This document shows, one piece after another, positions 293 to 50,867 of a stretch of 64,000 nt of DNA. Positions within the stretch are counted from its first letter, which is position 1. Every line of letters starts with the position of its first letter. The DNA is from Farysia itapuensis (lineage: Eukaryota > Basidiomycota > Ustilaginomycetes > Ustilaginales > Ustilaginaceae): NCBI GenBank assembly GCA_023212645.1, contig JALBYC010000006.1, positions 248,001-312,000 on the forward strand, written 5' to 3'. Under the pieces are notes generated by a model that was given only the letters and a program-made list of their open reading frames with translations, ran no database searches and was not told where the DNA came from. Both the position numbers and the translations under genes were made by a program.

Positions 293-2341
293 ATGGCACA
301 GGCAACAGAACCCGTCGGTAGCAAACCACCAGAAGAAACGCAGGTGGAAAATGTAGTACAGGAGGAAGACGATGGAGCCGAGTCCCCAAATGAGGGTAAC
401 GAGGGGGCAAACGCCAAGCAACGCAAGAAGAAAAAGTCAAAGGCAGCCGCCAAGCTGCGCAAGAAGCTCGGTCTAGGCAGCAATGCCGAGGAGCACCCCG
501 ACGGGAAGCTACTAGCCTCTGGATCTTCTACCGACGGGAAACTCTCGGATGAAGTTGTTTCCGAGGTGCAGAAGGCTGTACAGCAAGAGCACGGCGCAGC
601 AGCTGCTAACGCCGTCACCCGCGCCAACCTGGCCAAGGTAATGGCCATGATGAACATGGAGCGCGATGCTGTACTCAAGTCCCAGGAGGGAAAGCAGAAA
701 GCCGCATCCAAAGCGATCGTCGATCACAAATTCTGGAAGACGCAGCCGGTGATGAAACCCACCGATGCACCCATCACCGCTGCCGACGAGGAAGGAAGTA
801 TACAGCCCAGCGTACCACCATCTCAGGTCCGACAAGATGCTTACCCACTACCCAACGACTTCCAGTGGGTCATGATTGATGTCGATAGCCCATCCGAGCT
901 GAAAGAAGTGTACGACCTGCTCTCGGCCAACTATGTCGAAGATGACGACGCTACCCTCCGATTCAACTACAGTCCAGAGTTTCTGCATTGGGTGCTCAAG
1001 CATCCCGGCTATCAAAAGACATGGCATCTGGGCGTTCGGGTTGTGTCGACCAAAAAGCTGGTTGCTTTCATCTCGGGCATTCCACACGAGCTTCGAGTGC
1101 GCGAGAAATCCTACCAGTCCACCGAGATCAACTTTCTGTGTGTCCACAAGAAGCTGCGTTCGAAACGACTCGCTCCTGTTCTCATCAAGGAAGTGACGCG
1201 CCAGTGCCACTTGACCGGCGTTTTCCACGCTATCTACACTGTTGGTCAGGTCTTACCCACGCCTTTGTCGTGCGCTCGGTACTACCACCGTACTATCAAT
1301 GCCAAGAAGCTCGTCGAGGTTGGATTCAGTGCTGTCCCGCACAACATGTCGATGGAGTCGCACGTTCGTCGATTCGAGCTCCCCGCTCACGCCAACTTGC
1401 CAGGCATGCGGGAGATGGAGACGCGAGACGTTGCCGCTGTCGGTAAACTGCTGCGTCGCTACATGAAACGCTTTGACATGGCACCACGCTTTTCGGACCA
1501 CGAAGTGGAGCATATCCTGCTGAGTGGTCGTGGCAAGGCCGATACATCTGTCGGCGGTGGCAGTACTGGCAGCGCAGCTGGCTCCGGCGAACGCAAGAGA
1601 ACAGGCCAGGTCACCTGGACCTACGTCGTCGAGAACGAGCAAGGCAAAATCACCGACATGTTTTCCTTCTACTCGCTTCCCTCCAGTATCCTGGACAATG
1701 ACAAGCATGACTCACTCAATGCAGCGTACCTGTTCTACTATGCCACTGATGTCGCTTTTGCGGACTCGACAGTGGCGGTCGCGTCGCCTGCAGAGCCCGC
1801 GCCACTCAGTGGTGATCTGGCAGAATCGTCCAGCTCGACCAACCTGTCTGAACGGGCCAGCGCCCTAGCCACTGGTAAAGAAGCCTGGCAGTGCAACGAC
1901 TTGACCAACCTCTCACCCTCGGAACTACTCGACGAACAAAACGTCCCTACCTGGGACACTGAACCGGCCACTGTGAAACACGCGCTCAAAACCCGCCTTA
2001 ACCAGCTGGCAAACACGCTGCTCATCATTGCCAAGCAGCACAACTTTGACGTCGTCAACTGTCTCACCGTCATGGACAATGCGCTCTTCCTCGCCGATCA
2101 GAAGTTTGGACCGGGCGATGGGTTTTTGCGCTTTTACCTGTTCAACTGGCGTACGAAGCCAGTCGCGGGCGGGATGGGTGGACGACCGGGCGAGTCAGAG
2201 CTAGACCCAGTACACGTACACGCCAAATCCATCGCAGCCGCTCAACAATCCACCAACCCAAGCCTCGCTCGCCAACTGGTAGACAGAGCCAGCAAGAACC
2301 CCGCCGATGTCGGAAGCGGAAACGGCGTCGTCATGGTCTAG
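293..2341 (+). CDS. NMT1: Glycylpeptide N-tetradecanoyltransferase (N-myristoyltransferase)
   Basis: This enzyme transfers myristate from myristoyl-CoA to the N-terminal glycine of cytosolic proteins. The 682-residue product has a low-complexity Lys/Glu/Ala-rich N-terminus (about 1-185) with a KQRKKKKSK basic stretch, typical of the ribosome-associating tail of NMTs. The catalytic GNAT-like fold follows. Family landmarks are visible: FQW near 190, the EINFLCVHKKLRSKRLAPVLI acyl-CoA-binding region near 280, and FGPGDGFLRFYLFNWRTKP near the C-terminus. The chain ends in GVVMV, close to the conserved GVVML-type end whose terminal carboxylate is catalytic in this family. The protein is longer than typical fungal NMTs because of a Gly/Ser-rich insertion (about 418-440), an insertion at about 495-560 and a loop of some 40 residues just before the terminal motif. 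The start is the ATG at 293, and the gene is intron-free. It converges on SOG2. Confidence 0.95.
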   Translation: MAQATEPVGSKPPEETQVENVVQEEDDGAESPNEGNEGANAKQRKKKKSKAAAKLRKKLGLGSNAEEHPDGKLLASGSSTDGKLSDEVVSEVQKAVQQEHGAAAANAVTRANLAKVMAMMNMERDAVLKSQEGKQKAASKAIVDHKFWKTQPVMKPTDAPITAADEEGSIQPSVPPSQVRQDAYPLPNDFQWVMIDVDSPSELKEVYDLLSANYVEDDDATLRFNYSPEFLHWVLKHPGYQKTWHLGVRVVSTKKLVAFISGIPHELRVREKSYQSTEINFLCVHKKLRSKRLAPVLIKEVTRQCHLTGVFHAIYTVGQVLPTPLSCARYYHRTINAKKLVEVGFSAVPHNMSMESHVRRFELPAHANLPGMREMETRDVAAVGKLLRRYMKRFDMAPRFSDHEVEHILLSGRGKADTSVGGGSTGSAAGSGERKRTGQVTWTYVVENEQGKITDMFSFYSLPSSILDNDKHDSLNAAYLFYYATDVAFADSTVAVASPAEPAPLSGDLAESSSSTNLSERASALATGKEAWQCNDLTNLSPSELLDEQNVPTWDTEPATVKHALKTRLNQLANTLLIIAKQHNFDVVNCLTVMDNALFLADQKFGPGDGFLRFYLFNWRTKPVAGGMGGRPGESELDPVHVHAKSIAAAQQSTNPSLARQLVDRASKNPADVGSGNGVVMV

Positions 2342-18556: not shown

Positions 18557-19918
18557 ATGTCTAGATCGTCAACGTCGGGTTTGCATGCGACAGTGCGGGT
18601 ACGACCTGTTACAATCCGCTTCACCGAACCTGGCGTATCGGACTTGGCACTCGATGTACAGGCTCTGACTTCAGTCGATGGCGGAGAAAGCTCTTCCTCG
18701 GTTGTCCCCGAACCAGCATTGCTGTTTGACTTTGATGCAGAAGAGGCTCCAGCAGTCACAAACGGCAAGGGCAAGGCCAGAGATGTTGCTACCGATAGCC
18801 TGGTCCAGATACGAGCCGCGCTAGAGTCGGTGCTCGGCGAAGAGACGGTTCGCGAGATCAAGTACCGCATACGACTCCAACGACCGGCGCTACAACGACG
18901 GCGCTTGCGACTCATTCACTCTGGAAGAATTCTGCGGGACGGTATACGACTTGTCTCGTGGCTCGATGGTCTAGACGAACATCGTCGTTTGCAGAGCAAG
19001 ACGCTACAAGACCTTGCCTTTGAAGCGAGCGCCAATGCTCAATCCGATTCGGAAGACGAGACGGACGAGGACGAGGCAGCGGAAGAGAAGGACGAGATTC
19101 GAAGCAAGACGGTGGTGCTCAGCTCCATCCTAGAGCCTCCAGACGACGATCAGGGAGTCGTGCACAAAGGCAAGCAGAAACAGAGACAGCCCGAATGGTA
19201 TGCCAACAGCGTGCTTGTAACTCGACGGATCGCCCCTCGAATCTATCTGCAGTGTTCGGTGGGGGAAATGCTGCAACCAGGAGAAGAAGACAGTGCCATC
19301 CCGTTGGCACCTCTGCCATCATCAGAAGAGCAAGAGACAGGTCAAGAGGTCCCCACCTCGCAGAATGTAGAGCGAGGATTTGATCGACTGGTTGCTGCTG
19401 GACTCTCCCCGCAGGAGATCGAGGAGATGCGCTCACAGTTCCGATCTACTCTACCCATCATTGGCTCGGGCGAGGCGCTGCGTCAGCACGAAGAGCAAGA
19501 ACATCTACTGGCCATGGAAGATCAATGGATGGAGTCGTTCGATCTGCCTTCGGCCACTTCGGCATCCTACCAAACTGTGCTCGAGGGTTTGCTCGCCGGA
19601 TTCTTCCTTCCCCCCATGCTCCCACTCTTCTTCTTCAGCGAGAAGAGCCACCCTTCTTCCTTCCCACGCACCGGCGCGGAGCCAACAACAGGCCCCACTG
19701 GCCAGCCTGAGGAAGACGATCAAGACTTGTACGAACAGGAACAGTCAGACACTGCTGCCAACATCGTCTTCTCCAAAACAATGCAGATCTCCATCATGTT
19801 TGGCATCGCCGCAAAGTGAGTCTTACCAAGTCCAAAGAGGTACGCGCCTTCCGCTCACTGACGGTACAAGTTTTCCCTGCACAGTCTGTTAATGGGCGCG
19901 TTCAGGTGGATATGGTAG
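18557..19918 (+). CDS. DSC3: DSC E3 ubiquitin ligase complex subunit 3
   Basis: DSC3 is a ubiquitin-like membrane subunit of the Golgi/endosomal Dsc ubiquitin ligase, which in fission yeast activates SREBP and elsewhere degrades orphan membrane proteins. There are two exons, 18557-19815 and 19885-19918, separated by a 69-bp intron (donor GTGAGT, acceptor GCACAG). Splicing yields the C-terminus GIAANLLMGAFRWIW, which matches the conserved end of the family and validates the model. The 430-residue product has an N-terminal ubiquitin-like fold (RLRLIHSGRILRDGIRL at about 115-131), an acidic linker, a helical DUF2407-type segment (FDRLVAAGLSPQEIEEMRSQF) and two C-terminal membrane segments. The start is the ATG at 18557, preceded in frame by a GTG. 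It is convergent with the JJJ1-ChaC gene. Confidence 0.88.
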
Positions 19919-19944
19919 CAGCTCTATGATGCGATGCTTGTACT

Positions 19945-22542
19945 CTACATCTTCTTGCCCTTTTTACCTTTCTTCTTGGCACCACTGGTGCCATCCCGTG
20001 CTTCAGCGAGGGCATGACCCGTTTCTCGGATGTGGTTGAAAAGCTTGCTGCGGCTATCAAAGCCCGTTGAACACACATTGCACCGCTCTTTGGCGGCAGC
20101 CTTTTGTCTGCCCCTCTTTTCGGCTTTGCGATCGCTCCGCGTCGCATCCTCGATTCCAGAGTCGGTGTCGCCTCTGGTGGGTGTGTTCGCTGTCGTCGTC
20201 TGTGGCGTGAAATCAAACTCTCGCGGAGCGCCATTTTCTTGTAGCAGCAGGACGCGCTTTTCGAGTTCAAACAGATGATGATCGACAGACTGAGGAGCCA
20301 GTTGACGCACTGCTCGTGCCAAGTTGAGCAGATACTCGTCGTTACGGCCACTCGGGCCTTGACACGAGTATATGCGCGATGCGAGCTGGTCCAGCGACTG
20401 AGGTCCTACGAAGGCCGGATTGTCAGGTAGACCGACATACACCAGCGCATTGTCAAGAATCATCACCTCTTCCTCTACCGAATGTTTCTGCGGCAGTGCT
20501 TCCGCAGCAGGTTGGTCGTTCCCCCGCTCGGTCTGGTCGCTTGATTGGCGATAGCCAAAGACTGGCGCATACATAGCGGTATAGCCATTTTTTTCGCGGA
20601 AGTCAAGGTATTGGCGCACGACTTCGGCGTGATTCGAGTCGATGGTGAATGTGATACCCCAGACGATATCGCCTTCTGGCGAGCTACCTTCCTTTTCAGC
20701 GCCTTTGAGGTTGTACCAATCATCAGCTTTGACCAGCGTCACTACTCGGCCGGGTCTCTGACGTGTGCCGCGATGATCGATCGAATGCTGCGCAAAGCGC
20801 CGCGTAAATCCCTTGATGTAGCCCGGCGTCGCACCGATAACGTAGGGCGGGGGCTTAAAGATCAGGGAACCATAGCCAAACACATCAAAGGAGCCGCTCG
20901 GTCGCGAGCCTGGCGCCAAAGGGCCCGGTATTGTGGGGGAAAAGGCTGAAGGCGGGATGTAAGGATCTTCGAGACCAGCCCATGGGTCAAAATCGCCTTT
21001 TGCGGACTCTTCCGCGCCGACTTCCGGTGCAGCATCGTCGATCTGCTCAGGCTGTGATGGTTTGCTAGGTTTTGTGCTCCGATTGAGGTCTTGCACGACG
21101 AATCCGTCCTCGTCAAGTATAAGTCCGGCAGCTTCTTCCATCTGCCTTCGTTTCTTGTCCTGCTTCTTTTGTTTTTTGCTCTTTCCAGTTTCGCCCGGTG
21201 TGCTCGTGCCGCTTGTTTGTTTCGCGAAAGGTATTGAGAATCCAGCGGAGAAAGGGGATGTATCGGCGAGATCAACTCCGTTAAGGCTGTCGGCAAGATG
21301 ATCGTCGAGGCCGAGCTCGTCCTGCTCTTCTTGCATTTCTCGCTGCAGTTGCACAACGGCTTTTTTATGTTTGGCACTTTTCTCGTGATTGCGAAAAGCT
21401 GCTTCAGACTGGAACATCTTATCGCACGCTACACAGTCCCAGCCTGCTAGCTGCTGCGACTCATCGCCGCTTTGGCCGTTCGAGGATCCTTCACTGTCGT
21501 CTCCGCTCTCGCTATCTTTGTCAGAGTCACCCTCGTCTTCGTCATCCGAGAAACGGTATTCTGCTTGCTGCCAGCTTTGAGCTTGGTAGCTTTGTGCTCT
21601 TGCTTCTCGCTCTAGTCTGAGCTTTTCTGCATCTGCTTTGCGTCTGGCGAGGTCCGTCGCCGAGCCGGGACCTACCTTGTTCACATCCTCTTGAAACTTT
21701 TTGAAGCGAGGGTCTCGCTTTCTCACAAAGGCTGCCAAGGATCGAACGGTGTCGTTGTATTCACGTCGTGCTGCGTCGCGAGATCGTTTGTTTTCCTTCT
21801 CCATTAATCGTTTAACTCTGCGATCTGGTGCTTCGCGCAGATCGTACTTGTCAACCCAGCCAAAGCTCTTTCTTGACTGAAAGTTCATGAAGACCGTGTA
21901 GAAGTGTTTAACTGGAACTTGATGCACCTCGACCTGGGCTGCAGAGTATGGGGTATGGCTGAATCCAAATGGTGGGAACGCATCTGGCGCTGGTATGACG
22001 GATTCTTTTTCTTCCCCGGGGTACGGTGCCGCCACTCGCTCTTCCTGCGCTAAGCGCTCAAACAGTCTCTGGTACGTGGCGAAGAAGCCGCTGTCACTGT
22101 CGCTTAAATCTTTTGCCAGGCTGGGATCAAAGAAGCGGAGCAGTGCTTTGGCAGTCATGCCCTTTGAGGAGCTCGTGGGCTGTGCCACATCTTGGTTGCT
22201 TGCAGACCGGAAAGCCTCAAACACTTCTTCGTCGTCCAGATCCGGACCCTCGCCGTTGATGAGTCTTTCCCGATTCTGGTCGTACCACGCCCGCTCATTG
22301 TCATCCGACAGGATCTCGTACGCCTCCTGCAGTTTGTGAAAAGTCTTGTTTGCCTGTTCGACATTGTCTGGGTTCTTGTCTGGATGATGCTTGAGCGCTA
22401 GTCGACGGTACGCTTTACGAATCTCGTCCGAGGAAGCGGTCTGTTCGACCTGCAGTAGTTCGTAGTAGTCGACAAATACCGGTTCGCCATTGGCGCCACC
22501 ACCGCCCTTGCCTCCACCTTGAGACGATTGCGAGGCGCCCAT
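19945..22542 (-). CDS. JJJ1: JJJ1-type J-domain co-chaperone with an inserted ChaC gamma-glutamylcyclotransferase domain
   Basis: JJJ1 is the cytosolic Hsp70 co-chaperone that removes Arx1 from pre-60S ribosomal particles. The 865-residue product (ATG at 22540-22542) has a J domain at 25-88 with HPD at 53-55, the JJJ1-specific charged region, and a C2H2 finger (C370, C373, H386, H392). A second finger lies near the C-terminus (C821, C824, H837, H843), and a Lys/Gly-rich tail follows. Between the fingers, at about 551-768, is a complete ChaC-like domain: [11 protein letters not shown], then [13 protein letters not shown], and the catalytic glutamate in DFREKNGY (E650). ChaC enzymes split glutathione into 5-oxoproline and Cys-Gly. 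The frame is continuous with no stop, and I found no consensus splice pair that would excise the insert. An upstream in-frame ATG at 22651-22653 would add 37 residues; I prefer the inner start, whose MGASQS is also a myristoylation-type N-terminus. Confidence 0.88.
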
Positions 22543-22748
22543 TCCTTGTTCGAAGTAGCTGAGCTCAAGACGCAAAGCAATAGCCGGAGAACACCAAATT
22601 TTATCTCGGATAGCGGAAGTGGAGTGAGGAGCCAAAGCACAAATTGCGAGCATGCGAACAACAGCTCAAAACCCAGCAATCCTTTCAAAGCCAAACACGC
22701 CTTCCCTCGAACCCCGAGCTCGTCCGAGCACGACTTGTGCCTGCAACA

Positions 22749-23849
22749 ATGGGTCGCAAGGCAGAAGTGCAAAAAATGATGCTGGAGAAGCTCATGGGTC
22801 CCGAGGCCATGGGCATCCCAACCGCCAATCTGCACTTTACTGATCCCAAAGTCTGCCGAAATTTCCTCTGCGGCACCTGTCCACACGATCTCTTTGCCAA
22901 CACAGTAGGTTGTTGTCCTTTGTTGCGCTCACACGGCTTTGTACTAATCATCTGTTGTGTATAACAGAAAGTCGATCTGGGGCCATGTCCGAAATCACAT
23001 GTGCCAAAGTACAAGAACGAGTTTCAGAAAGCTCTCGTTGCCGGTGAACGCTTCCCGACATTCGAGCGAGAACATGAGCACAACATCTTCTCCTTTGTCT
23101 CTGACATTGACCGAAAAGTAGCGTCCAACAAGCGGCGACTAGAGCAGACACCGGAGGAAATCGCAAGATTCGCCAACACGAATCGTGAAATCGCAGAGAT
23201 CGAGACAGCATTAGCGGCTGTCATGGCCGAGGTCGAAGCTCTGGGTGAACAAGGTCAGATTGAAGAATCGCTTGCAGAGCTGCAGAAAGCTGAAGCACTC
23301 AAAGAGGAAAAGGCACAAAAGGAGCAAGAGCTGCACAAGGCACAGGAGAACTCGGGTGCTTCTGGACATCAAAAGTTGCGTGTCTGCGACGTCTGTGGTG
23401 CCTACCTCAGTATCCTGGACTCGGATCGAAGATTGGCTGACCATTTTGGTGGCAAGGTAGGTTGCGAAAGCTAAGAAGATGCACGACGAGCTCTGACTGA
23501 CTTCTTGACCTCGTTTTGCAAACAGATGCATTTGGGATACTTGCGGCTACGCGAGATGATTACCGAGTTTGAGGAAAGAAGACGGACGGCAAACCCAGCA
23601 CCCATGGGTGCACCTGCAGAAATGCTCAACGGACATGCATCTGCCGCACCGTCTTCCACCAACGGTCTCGCAGTCAAAACAGAACGTGAGCGCGATTTCG
23701 ATCAGGAAAGGGAACGTCGAGACCGCGAGCGACGCGAGAGTCGTGAGCACAGAATACTTGTTCCAACACCAGAAGATCCTCGCACGGTATCCAAGCACAA
23801 AGAGGATGAACGAAAGCGCAGCAGGTCACCTATCAACATCTATCAGTAG
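22749..23849 (+). CDS. LUC7: U1 snRNP-associated protein LUC7
   Basis: LUC7 joins the U1 snRNP and helps select 5' splice sites. Three exons: 22749-22904, 22968-23456 and 23526-23849, with introns of 63 and 69 bp using GTAGGT donors. The first intron has a perfect TACTAAT branch point. The joins give an uninterrupted 322-residue protein. The first CCCH finger spans the first intron (CRNFLCGTCPHDLF then DLGPCPKSH). The second is C2H2 (CDVCGAYLSILDSD...H), split after GGK by the second intron and continuing MHLGYLRLREM. Between them is a long coiled coil (about 85-165). The C-terminus is Arg/Glu/Ser-rich and ends in RSRSPINIYQ. The phase and motif continuity at both joins make the model secure. 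It is divergent from JJJ1. Confidence 0.95.
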
Positions 23850-47282: not shown

Positions 47283-50200
47283 TTATAGGAAGCCGATGGC
47301 TTTCCAGCGCTGAACGGTCTTGGTGATCAAAGCTTGGTCGACGCCGCCGTGAGATTTCCAGTTGACGAAATGCTCTGGACTTGCAGCGTCTGTTGCTTCG
47401 GTGTTAAAGACCGCAGCAGGAGGCGGTGCTGGTGTGTTCTTTGGCGGCGGAGGAGTGGAGGAGGAGGAGGCGGATGGGAGTGAAGCAAAGTTGCGTTCCC
47501 ATAGTGGCAGGAGTCCTCGATCGTCAAGGTGATGCTCTCGGACTAGACGGGTCCATTCCAAGGGAGTGACGTAGTCGAGCTTGACACCAGAGGCGGGGGA
47601 GGAGGAGGGGGATGTCAGCCAAGTGTGCAGATCTTCCCAGCATGCCGTCTCTGTCGGGGAAGTGGCTGAGGGCAGGGCGATATTGTACACCCCGGCGGTA
47701 CCCAGCTCAGCGTGGGGAGGGGCTTGCACGATGTCGAGCACGGTTCGTGCTGCGACGTCGACAGGTAGCCAGTCGAGTTTCTCTGTGGGTCCGAGACGTG
47801 GAAATCGGCCCAACTTGTGGGAGAGCGAGATGAGAATCGGCCATGCCTCGCTCTCGTTCCACACGCCGTTCCGCGTGTCCGAACAGAGCTGACCTATGCG
47901 CAGGATCGTATAGCGCGAGGCACGTCTGCCGCTGTACGCGGGAGAGTGCTGAGAAGCACGCGAGACGATGTGTTCAGCAACCCACTTGCTCCTCGCATAC
48001 CCCATTGCGACCGCCGCTCGTGGATCCATCGCCACCACCTCATCGTACACTCCTCCACCCCCAGCCTGTCCCAGGACGGCCGCTGTCGACGAACAGAATC
48101 CGAAACAACTTTGCAGCGAATCACGACCGCCAGCGCTGCTGCTGTGGCTTGCATTAGCCATCTTCTCGTGCAAAGTGATCAGATTTCGCAGCCCACTGAT
48201 TTGGGAGTGCTCAAAACTTCTGAGGCCGATGACGAAATTGACAGCCCATGCAGCATGGATGGTTACGACACGACTCCTCTGCGAGGCCAGTAAAGTCAAG
48301 CTGTCGTGGACGGATGGGTTCAGCCCGCAGTCTGATTTGGAGAGATCGGCTGCCAAACACCGTACGTCCCTATCAGGGTGGATGTTGCGCTTTTCTGATG
48401 ATGCTTTAGATAATGCGATCGTGTCGTGTGCTTGCTCGAGGTTTCGTGATGAGAGCGACTGCAAGACCCGATCGAGGGCCTGGCGGTCGGACGTTGCTCG
48501 AACAAACAAGACTACGGTGTCTCTGTCACTGGACGTGTTGAGCAAGAGCTCCGACACGAGCTGAGCACCTAGGCCGCCTGTCACGCCTGTCACAAAATAC
48601 AACACCCCATTTACCTCACTGCTGTCCTGTGCCGACTTGTCTCTTTGGCCTTGCCCGTTCTGGGTCTGAGCACTGCTCTCGAAATTTGGGCTGTACTTGT
48701 CCACCAAAGCTTGCATCAAGGCCAGATCTTGTATGTCCTTGTCCGATGCAGCCAAGTTGTCGCCACTGCCATTGCGAACTTGCTCTATGTGCTCACTGAG
48801 CAGGGCAGGAGTCGGGTAGTCGTAGACCACATTCTTGGCCAGCAACCGATCAGATTTGCCCAAGTCGATGTTTTGATGAATTGCAGCACGAATCCTCGCA
48901 GCCTGGATGGAGTCGACGCCGGCTACGAAGAAATCCGTGTCCGCACCCAGATTTGTAGCGTTGTTCATGCTTTCGACAGTAGTGGTGATCCACTGCACCA
49001 GCTTTGCTCCTGAGAGCGCTTGCTTGGTGGCGAAACCGTCCTGATCCCCATCGTTCGTGTTGAGATGGAGGGACCGTCCTTCTTCGAATTCGGTATAGAC
49101 TTGGTCAATGAGGGAAGCGTATTGGCTGTAAGCACGCCCACGCTGCAGAGTCCCTTTGCTGGCGCGAGGAATCTGCTCCGCTTCTTCAGGGCTCATGAGA
49201 TGGATCATCTCAACGGCGAGCTGCGCGTGAGGCGGTACGGTTTTGTTGATAGCAGCCAAGGTTGGCTGGAGAACTTTGAGCAAGCTGACTTTGGTGGGAG
49301 TGTCCCAACGCCGTTGCTTTCCGTCTTGTCTCATCGCATCCACAGAGACAAACAGGAGTGCTCCGAGAATGGCGCGATTGGCGCCAAAAACGATGGCTTC
49401 GGAGACTTGCGGCAGCTGCTTGAGATTTGATTCTGCAAGTAGTGCCGGGACCTTCTTGCCGTTGATGAGCACAAGAGTGTCGTCGGACCGACTGTCGTAT
49501 CTCCACGTGTCTGGCTTAGTGGGATGAGGCGCGTAGAGGTCGGATGTGGCGTACGAGCCGTCTTTGCGGTTCGAGACGAGCTTGGTCGGCCAGTCTGCTC
49601 CCACGACTAGTTCGTATGTGCCCATGTTTGCGTGAGACGCCTCAGCGGTCGTTGTGGAAGGAGGCGTGCTCTGTTCGAATTGCAACAGCTTCTTACCGAG
49701 CTCGTCAAGCACACGGAGGTGAGACCATTCCTTGTCCGAGACAAAATCCCGCCATGATGACATGAGGAAGCCGCATTCAGAGCTTCCAAGTCTACTGACC
49801 AGTCGTATGTCGTGCCGAACCATGTCGTCTCCCAGATGTTGCGGTAAAGGTGCACCACCCGTACTGACCAGCTGCATGGATTGTAGCATCTTCCGCCCTG
49901 TAGAGTCTGCGTGCAAGAGCTCCAGGATGTAAGGTACCGAGAGAAAGTACGACATGTCCGTAACTGGGCACGACCTTATTGCGGCACAAATAGCTGCAGA
50001 GGATAGCGCTCCTGGATCGGCAGTGGGGTGGAAGAAGATCGTCGAGCCTGCCTGAACTGATCTGAGAAGGTCTGACATCCCGCCGTGAAACAAGGGCGTG
50101 GTTGTGAATGCCGACAGCTCCACACCGGGCGCTGAAGCCATAGAGTTGGACCAAAAGCGATGAAGCTGATAAATGGGTTTAGGCAGACCTGAAGAGCCGC

Positions 50201-50867
50201 TCGTATGCATGACGACAAGAACATCGTCTCCGGAATTCCTTCTCACTGCTGGAGCTTCGAAGTCTGTCTGTTTTGCTTCGGAGAGCTGAGTGATGTCGTC
50301 TATCATCAACACTGTTTTGACCTTGATATCCTCCTTTCCAGTAGCAGCCGCAGTAGCTCCGGACAGAGCTGAGTCATGTTGGCTCTGATGGCATAGGATT
50401 GTCGAAGTAGCAGTCGTCCGAAGCAGGTTCGCGAGTGAGTCTGGTGGGGCGCCTGGAGCAATGCACAGAACGCCATATCCAAGCCGCCAGAGCGCGACGA
50501 TGTGCGCAAAGAGATGGATCCCAGAGGGCGAAAGAACAGCGACAAGCGGGGTCCCGTTCGGGGACAAAGGATTCTCGACTTGCTTTGGCAAGAGTTCTTG
50601 CAGCTGGTGAGCTAGACCAATGCTGATGTGCTTAATCTGAGCATATGTGAGGGTCTTGCAGGACCATCTGGAAGACTCCGACTGGAGCTGCGTGAAGCCA
50701 GCGGCTATGCGGTCCGGCGAGTGCTGGGCTCTGAAATCGAGTAGCGCGTTGACAGATCCATGCTGCCGTGGTTCTGGTTGGGGAGGATCTGGCAGAGACA
50801 ACGCCTGCGTTATGGTCAAAGTCAGATACGGTGGTCTGTCCAGCGACAGCGTCCCGTTTGCCACCAT
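47283..50867 (-). CDS. NRPS-like A-T-R carboxylic acid reductase
   Basis: The 1194-residue product (ATG at 50865-50867; upstream codons begin with TTG) contains three domains. An adenylation domain occupies about 30-580, with the phosphate loop HTSGSSGLPKP near 221-231. A thiolation domain has the phosphopantetheine serine in FFVAGVDSIQ (about S653). A thioester reductase lies at about 755-1190, with the NADP motif TGVTGGLG near 760-767 and a Y-x3-K pair in YARSK near 957-961. Such enzymes activate a carboxylic acid, tether it and release it as an aldehyde or alcohol. There is no condensation domain, and the N-terminus differs from alpha-aminoadipate reductase LYS2, so lysine synthesis is unlikely. 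No tailoring enzyme flanks it, so it appears as an orphan secondary-metabolism gene. The substrate is unknown. Confidence 0.9.
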   Translation of the reverse strand: MVANGTLSLDRPPYLTLTITQALSLPDPPQPEPRQHGSVNALLDFRAQHSPDRIAAGFTQLQSESSRWSCKTLTYAQIKHISIGLAHQLQELLPKQVENPLSPNGTPLVAVLSPSGIHLFAHIVALWRLGYGVLCIAPGAPPDSLANLLRTTATSTILCHQSQHDSALSGATAAATGKEDIKVKTVLMIDDITQLSEAKQTDFEAPAVRRNSGDDVLVVMHTSGSSGLPKPIYQLHRFWSNSMASAPGVELSAFTTTPLFHGGMSDLLRSVQAGSTIFFHPTADPGALSSAAICAAIRSCPVTDMSYFLSVPYILELLHADSTGRKMLQSMQLVSTGGAPLPQHLGDDMVRHDIRLVSRLGSSECGFLMSSWRDFVSDKEWSHLRVLDELGKKLLQFEQSTPPSTTTAEASHANMGTYELVVGADWPTKLVSNRKDGSYATSDLYAPHPTKPDTWRYDSRSDDTLVLINGKKVPALLAESNLKQLPQVSEAIVFGANRAILGALLFVSVDAMRQDGKQRRWDTPTKVSLLKVLQPTLAAINKTVPPHAQLAVEMIHLMSPEEAEQIPRASKGTLQRGRAYSQYASLIDQVYTEFEEGRSLHLNTNDGDQDGFATKQALSGAKLVQWITTTVESMNNATNLGADTDFFVAGVDSIQAARIRAAIHQNIDLGKSDRLLAKNVVYDYPTPALLSEHIEQVRNGSGDNLAASDKDIQDLALMQALVDKYSPNFESSAQTQNGQGQRDKSAQDSSEVNGVLYFVTGVTGGLGAQLVSELLLNTSSDRDTVVLFVRATSDRQALDRVLQSLSSRNLEQAHDTIALSKASSEKRNIHPDRDVRCLAADLSKSDCGLNPSVHDSLTLLASQRSRVVTIHAAWAVNFVIGLRSFEHSQISGLRNLITLHEKMANASHSSSAGGRDSLQSCFGFCSSTAAVLGQAGGGGVYDEVVAMDPRAAVAMGYARSKWVAEHIVSRASQHSPAYSGRRASRYTILRIGQLCSDTRNGVWNESEAWPILISLSHKLGRFPRLGPTEKLDWLPVDVAARTVLDIVQAPPHAELGTAGVYNIALPSATSPTETACWEDLHTWLTSPSSSPASGVKLDYVTPLEWTRLVREHHLDDRGLLPLWERNFASLPSASSSSTPPPPKNTPAPPPAAVFNTEATDAASPEHFVNWKSHGGVDQALITKTVQRWKAIGFL

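Follow-up and report, generated by a model that had tools for sequence, protein, structure and literature searches.

In Farysia itapuensis, a complete ChaC gamma-glutamylcyclotransferase domain is nested between the two C2H2 zinc fingers of the co-chaperone JJJ1, within one open reading frame at 19945..22542 on the reverse strand of the window (i.e., the whole 64,000-nucleotide stretch of DNA analysed here). This architecture is conserved among relatives, the catalytic residues of the enzyme are conserved with it, and the gene holds the sole ChaC copy found in this assembly. We propose that it encodes a single bifunctional cytosolic protein, JJJ1 and ChaC in one chain, whose two activities would be largely autonomous and whose insertion would have a single origin; we assign this reading a probability of roughly 0.7. 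Enzymatic activity, JJJ1 function, module autonomy and single origin are the components of this reading that we infer from sequence.

The coding sequence begins with an ATG at 22542 and ends with a stop at 19945; it encodes 865 amino acids plus the stop and needs no intron, in line with the unbroken frame of 865 codons claimed in the initial annotation; an in-frame ATG upstream would extend the product to 902 amino acids. Pfam searches combined with a pattern check give the domain order J, zuotin-homology, C2H2 finger, ChaC, C2H2 finger. Specifically, the J domain (residues 25-88; 22279..22470, reverse strand as are all features of this gene) matches Pfam DnaJ with an E-value of 9.1e-26 and carries its HPD at residues 53-55, and the zuotin-homology domain (residues 209-281; 21700..21918) matches ZUO1-like_ZHD with an E-value of 5.1e-13. 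The first finger (residues 368-393; 21364..21441; zf-C2H2_jaz, E-value 3.8e-10) has C370, C373, H386 and H392 in place. It is followed by linker B (residues 406-550; 20893..21327), which is partly disordered and contains a basic motif with a counterpart in ChaC-free JJJ1 of Exobasidiales. The ChaC domain (residues 554-764; 20251..20883; Pfam ChaC, E-value 5.8e-51) scores 173.5 bits against a cut-off of 21 and covers profile positions 3-173 of 176. After linker C (residues 769-815; 20098..20238), which is disordered in the structure model, comes the second finger (C821, C824, H837 and H843; 20014..20082). Its Pfam match at 820-840 falls under the cut-offs, and its C-x2-C-x12-H-x5-H pattern at 821-843 is complete and conserved. 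The predicted structure (pTM 0.41) shows a folded ChaC domain, with structure matches to ChaC2 and Gcg1, and disordered linkers at 326-365, 419-454, 479-525 and 781-815.

The protein thus resembles JJJ1/DNAJC21 in its J domain with HPD, its zuotin-homology region and its two C2H2 fingers, but differs from it by a ChaC domain of ~210 residues in the inter-finger linker. It likewise differs from Gcg1 and ChaC2, which are small free enzymes with chains of 180-240 residues, in that its ChaC is embedded in another protein. Database sources name some relatives "related to JJJ1" or "Jjj1p"; the JJJ1 assignment made here is by domains. Ustilaginomycotina proteins labelled either as JJJ1-related or as glutathione-specific gamma-glutamylcyclotransferase have the same architecture and are orthologues, each name covering one half of the protein.

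To determine how far the architecture extends, we took the best 120 of 219 matches from a full-length protein search together with the window protein (121 rows), built five part profiles and checked the order of the parts across all rows. The first finger and ChaC co-occur in 71 rows (the fused rows below), 49 rows have no ChaC, and one (P0113) is ChaC alone. The finger-ChaC-finger order is found in 58 of the 71 fused rows, and 52 of these 58 also have the J and zuotin-homology domains; the J-C2H2-ChaC-C2H2 order for which a search of other proteomes had been suggested is therefore present, with both of these domains included, in 52 of 121 rows. A J domain is matched in 62 of the 71 fused rows, all of which contain HPD, and the other nine have no J match. 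The fused genera are Testicularia, Ustilago, Sporisorium, Pseudozyma, Kalmanozyma, Melanopsichium, Thecaphora, Violaceomyces, Sympodiomycopsis, Parajaminaea, Microstroma, Jaminaea, Tilletiaria, Malassezia and Tilletia, which represent Ustilaginales, Violaceomyces, Microstromatales, Tilletiaria, Tilletia and Malassezia; NCBI lineages were checked for Testicularia, Tilletiaria and Sympodiomycopsis. Testicularia cyperi (Ustilaginales), at 65% identity, is the closest named relative among the matches listed. Altogether, the fusion noticed in the window is real, but it is not peculiar to F. itapuensis, since most of the Ustilaginomycotina orders sampled have it.

We also searched proteins of comparable length with the ChaC region and obtained 81 matches, 70 of them with JJJ1 domains. 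The other 11 comprise two Malassezia partial duplicates and nine proteins with no listed JJJ1 domain (from Panaeolus, Rhodotorula, Zopfochytrium, Nowakowskiella and a sturgeon, plus four RCC1-repeat proteins). Among the named proteins in these 81 matches, no JJJ1-ChaC fusion lies outside Ustilaginomycotina.

The second finger is undetected in 13 of the 71 fused rows. Five of these are of Tilletia type (P0058, P0059, P0060, P0061 and P0063, with P0060 63-64% identical to named Tilletia rows), two are Tilletiaria-like with ordinary-looking tails (P0066 and P0069), and six are partial or apparently misread gene models with ends that resemble intron read-through (P0028, P0030, P0031, P0051, P0065 and P0081). 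Because the finger is undetected in these 13 rows and its pattern is damaged in a further two of the 58 (P0016 and P0057), the sequences indicate that it is not indispensable in every lineage.

A composite protein of this kind could also arise as an artefact, either through an assembly error joining two neighbouring genes or through splicing that removes the insert from the transcript. We scanned 19600-23000 (reverse strand) for splice signals with strict patterns (a GTRNGT donor, and a CTRAY branch before YAG) and found five donors. No strict-pattern donor/acceptor pair in this interval flanks the ChaC insert, in agreement with the earlier statement that no consensus pair would remove it. All pairs deleting at least 150 ChaC residues start at residue 290, span 1.27-1.97 kb and would lose the first finger too; of the four short pairs, two fall at residues 290-350 and two inside ChaC (701-720), the latter of 43 and 55 nt and both out of frame. 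GC3 is uniform along the gene (0.48-0.62, with 0.58 in the ChaC part). An internal start producing free ChaC was also considered, and the Met residues closest ahead of the domain are M403 and M468, neither of which adjoins it. Splicing-out was rejected since no strict-pattern pair takes the insert out cleanly and the architecture recurs in relatives, and assembly error or chance was ruled out by the identical domain order across many species and genomes. Given this recurrence, the artefact explanation is untenable, and we consider its probability practically negligible.

The position of ChaC within JJJ1 can be read from relatives that have no ChaC. In Meira and Exobasidium, the ChaC-free JJJ1 proteins measure 104-108 residues from finger to finger, and their linker has a LSKKARQKLKKRMK-like motif early and a K(K/S)xRRxKKD motif ahead of the second finger. 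Both kinds of motif are kept in the fused proteins, the window protein included (e.g., GKSKKAKKKAKQRMK and KKSRRAKKDK in Sympodiomycopsis), with ChaC between them. In 48 ChaC-free rows the two fingers lie 96-262 residues apart (median 127), versus 286-494 (median 378) in 58 fused rows. Because ChaC sits between two linker motifs that are retained in Exobasidiales JJJ1, the alignments indicate an insertion into the JJJ1 linker and not a terminal addition, as the initial annotation had argued against an end-to-end fusion.

The inserted domain appears to be equipped as an enzyme. The catalytic Glu and the glycine loop named earlier are both present: the YGSL loop occupies residues 557-560 (20863..20874, by alignment), and E650 (20593..20595) occupies, in an alignment to solved ChaC proteins, the position of E83 in human ChaC2 and of the corresponding Glu in yeast Gcg1. 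Residues Tyr6, Gly7, Ser8, His39, Glu83, Tyr87, Tyr109 and Tyr144 of human ChaC2 are described as conserved in the family in passages of PMC7022552. In the alignment, they correspond to Y557, G558, S559, H590, E650, Y654, Y702 and Y737 of the window protein. The residues S559, H590, R591, E650, Y654, Y702 and Y737 show no variation across the 71 fused rows. Glu74, the alternative Glu of ChaC2, corresponds to V641 as read off the alignment, and this position is E in 44 and V in 18 of the 71 fused rows. Between the window protein and Tilletiaria, identity is 70% in ChaC, 70% in the zuotin-homology domain and 58% in the J domain, which suggests that ChaC is strongly conserved, to the same degree as the zuotin-homology domain. 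These observations bear on the alternative that the domain is inactive or altered and serves as a spacer or a ligand-binding sensor. In its favour, 13 of the 71 fused rows have F in place of Y557 (those with names being Microstroma, Jaminaea, Sympodiomycopsis and Parajaminaea), and L705, A710 and L739 differ from the majority of free basidiomycete ChaC. However, the other catalytic positions checked are invariant, the domain is strongly conserved, the window protein itself retains Y557, and no other ChaC was found that could supply the activity. We thus regard a loss or change of activity as improbable and retain an active ChaC domain in our reading.

Next, we considered the history of the fusion, using a ChaC tree built from 74 of 192 rows and trees of the JJJ1 body. 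All sampled Ustilaginomycotina ChaC, free or fused, group in a single clade apart from other basidiomycete ChaC (100/99). In Exobasidiales, the two proteins are separate: JJJ1 is ChaC-free and has both fingers (P0073 from Meira and P0078 from Exobasidium), and ChaC is free (P0125 from Acaromyces), the free JJJ1 and the free ChaC thus coming from different named genera. Two histories can account for this distribution. Either the fusion occurred once, early, and was later undone in Exobasidiales, or it postdates the Exobasidiales split and Exobasidiales keep the ancestral separate genes. The JJJ1-body trees group Exobasidiales together with fused rows of Tilletia and Tilletiaria (97/94; 96/86; 96/89 with the composite concatenation), and such a placement among fused lineages would mean that the fusion came first and was later undone. 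In addition, the ChaC tree gives the fused row P0068 free ChaC of Exobasidiales type as its sister (99/93), and in the NCBI taxonomy Exobasidiales share their class with the fused Tilletiaria and Sympodiomycopsis.

The late-fusion history, on the other hand, draws on two observations. First, forcing the fused rows into one clade is not clearly rejected: the AU p-value is 0.027, rising to 0.059 when five rows (four of them long-branched) are removed; it is 0.137 when ChaC is analysed by itself and 0.127 with the composite concatenation, i.e., the constraint is rejected in one of four tests. Second, a PxGSFD lead precedes ChaC in 65 of 71 fused rows and in four of 121 other ChaC rows, all Malassezia-type, whereas free Exobasidiales-type ChaC starts at the VFGYGSL strand. 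We looked for this lead in the latter as a relic of fusion and did not find it, which counts against re-separation. Weighing the trees against these observations, we lean towards one early fusion followed by separation in Exobasidiales, and consider a late fusion the less probable course, though one with a substantial claim. Two metagenomic rows deserve mention here: P0068 is fused and has a long branch in the body tree, and P0082 is without ChaC yet falls outside the Exobasidiales group. From their placement, both may serve as markers of the lineage where the separation happened.

In Malassezia, the direction of change is clearer than in Exobasidiales, and the extra free ChaC copies of some species derive from the fused gene. 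The lead of the fused proteins persists in P0121, a free ChaC from M. sympodialis, in two relatives (P0122 and P0123), and in the ChaC-containing models P0113 (M. equina) and P0241 (M. caprae); in the ChaC tree, P0121, P0122, P0123 and P0113 nest within the fused Malassezia clade. In P0122 the second finger is still present, and over 286 residues this protein shares 92.7% identity with the fused protein of M. equina. The catalytic residues are intact in P0041 and P0044, the fused proteins found in M. equina and M. caprae. In these two species, a few gene numbers separate the extra copies from the parent (MEQU1_000725 versus 000731 in M. equina; MCAP1_000026 versus 000019 in M. caprae), and the models of the copies continue into a second, unrelated stretch of ~350-400 residues.

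The initial annotation had suggested looking for a separate ChaC gene elsewhere in the genome. A six-frame search of the species' own assembly (13.7 Mb in 53 contigs, which may be incomplete, such that a second ChaC could be missing) found one ChaC, the JJJ1-ChaC gene itself. Among the best 120 of 1686 matches in a ChaC-domain search against proteins of free-standing size, which go down to 45% identity and of which a good many are nameless, none is by name a free ChaC from Ustilaginales. The assembly also encodes a separate Zuo1-type protein, whose zuotin-homology domain scores 150.8 bits versus 56 bits in JJJ1-ChaC, and a Rei1-like protein of 488 amino acids; in both respects, the gene complement agrees with that expected for JJJ1/DNAJC21. 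On the glutathione side, it contains a Hydantoinase_B gene, probably of 5-oxoprolinase type, and three gamma-glutamyltranspeptidase genes. Because the latter exist, ChaC is not the sole route of glutathione cleavage here. By these matches, partner genes for the JJJ1 half and for the ChaC half are both encoded. Elsewhere in the window, 47283-50867 (reverse strand) encodes an NRPS-like reductase of 1194 amino acids in a single open frame, with AMP-binding, carrier and NAD-binding reductase domains.

The N-terminus MGASQS (22525..22542) matches MGxxx[ST] and fits the N-myristoylation consensus, as had been noticed earlier, but it shows no tie to the insert. A J-domain match is present in 111 of the 121 rows, of which 100 were usable for counting; the 11 left out (P0021, P0024, P0025, P0027, P0029, P0030, P0071, P0073, P0074, P0082 and P0107) have a J domain starting before residue 15 or after residue 60, or a first residue other than Met. 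The motif is found in 96 of the 100 usable N-termini (53 of 56 fused and 43 of 44 unfused) and in rows named Ustilaginomycotina, Amanita, Wallemia, Naganishia and Rhodotorula. An MG start is found in none of the 11 rows left out, some of which may simply be without the extension, which gives 96 of 111 overall. Since the motif is equally frequent in JJJ1 without ChaC, it is unrelated to the insert and, judging from these rows, appears to be a trait of Basidiomycota JJJ1. A lineage-wide myristoylated J protein in basidiomycetes is thus possible. To our knowledge, yeast and human JJJ1 are without this extension, and a literature search joining Jjj1, J-domain and myristoyl found no paper. An N-myristoyltransferase gene (NMT and NMT_C) lies at 293-2341 (forward strand), ~20 kb from JJJ1-ChaC, a nearness that is probably due to chance.

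How the two halves might work can be framed by the yeast proteins. Jjj1 together with Rei1 stimulates the Ssa Hsp70 to free Arx1 from pre-60S particles in the cytoplasm (passages of PMC6968927 and PMC6710477), and Gcg1 is a ChaC2-type enzyme that can cleave the gamma-glutamyl bond of glutathione (a passage of PMC7617739). We propose that the JJJ1 part would work as in yeast, stimulating Hsp70 (Ssa) with Rei1 to take Arx1 off late pre-60S, and that ChaC, held in the flexible inter-finger linker, would break glutathione down into 5-oxoproline and Cys-Gly. Most likely, the domain was inserted once in Ustilaginomycotina and replaced a free-standing ChaC (Gcg1) in its role. Joined by disordered tethers, the two activities would be independent for the most part; the tether would ensure co-production and put some glutathione turnover at JJJ1 locations.

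A stronger proposal is functional coupling, in which tethered ChaC would match the supply of glutathione/cysteine, locally or globally, to Hsp70 activity and the late maturation of 60S, or the state of glutathione would gate Arx1 release. The initial annotation had likewise proposed glutathione turnover, or a redox sensor, on a factor of pre-60S particles; among the results obtained here, none favours a redox sensor. The fusion is kept over several orders of Ustilaginomycotina with intact catalytic residues, which suggests that separation is hard or not advantageous; moreover, ChaC lies between the two fingers and not at a terminus, and the fused copy is the sole ChaC found in the assembly. 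However, the proteins are unlinked in the sampled Exobasidiales, Malassezia relatives have extra free ChaC, and the linkers are variable and disordered, with linker C 28% identical to P0001, 28% to Testicularia and 8% to Sporisorium. These three observations together suggest that the linkage is not essential, and we hold functional coupling to be unlikely. Its most specific form, in which the Arx1-recycling factor carries ChaC glutathione turnover coupled in cis to the last 60S steps in most Ustilaginomycotina, possibly near membranes via the myristoylation signal, is more doubtful still. We therefore retain the reading of a single protein whose two activities would be largely independent.

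JJJ1 and ChaC each belong to a well-known family. Their combination can be seen in the domain listings of databases but is apparently undescribed in the open-access literature, where a search mainly of titles and abstracts found no account of it. In the parts of the three papers that matched JJJ1 and ChaC as words, ChaC occurred only inside the author name Chacon-Flores, and the matching text of PMC9917257 and PMC7766764 was the gene ChAcs2 and the author Chacko, respectively. The text of a ChaC review (PMC12756093) contains neither "fusion" nor "ribosom".

Our findings mean that, in much of a fungal subphylum, two housekeeping proteins familiar from textbooks are joined in a single chain, and that a folded enzyme is tolerated within the linker of a co-chaperone. 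Annotations that cover one half (JJJ1 or ChaC) can accordingly mislead functional studies in smuts and Malassezia. The fused protein offers a natural test of a link between sulfur/redox metabolism and ribosome maturation, for which the sampled Exobasidiales, with their unlinked proteins, provide a natural control.
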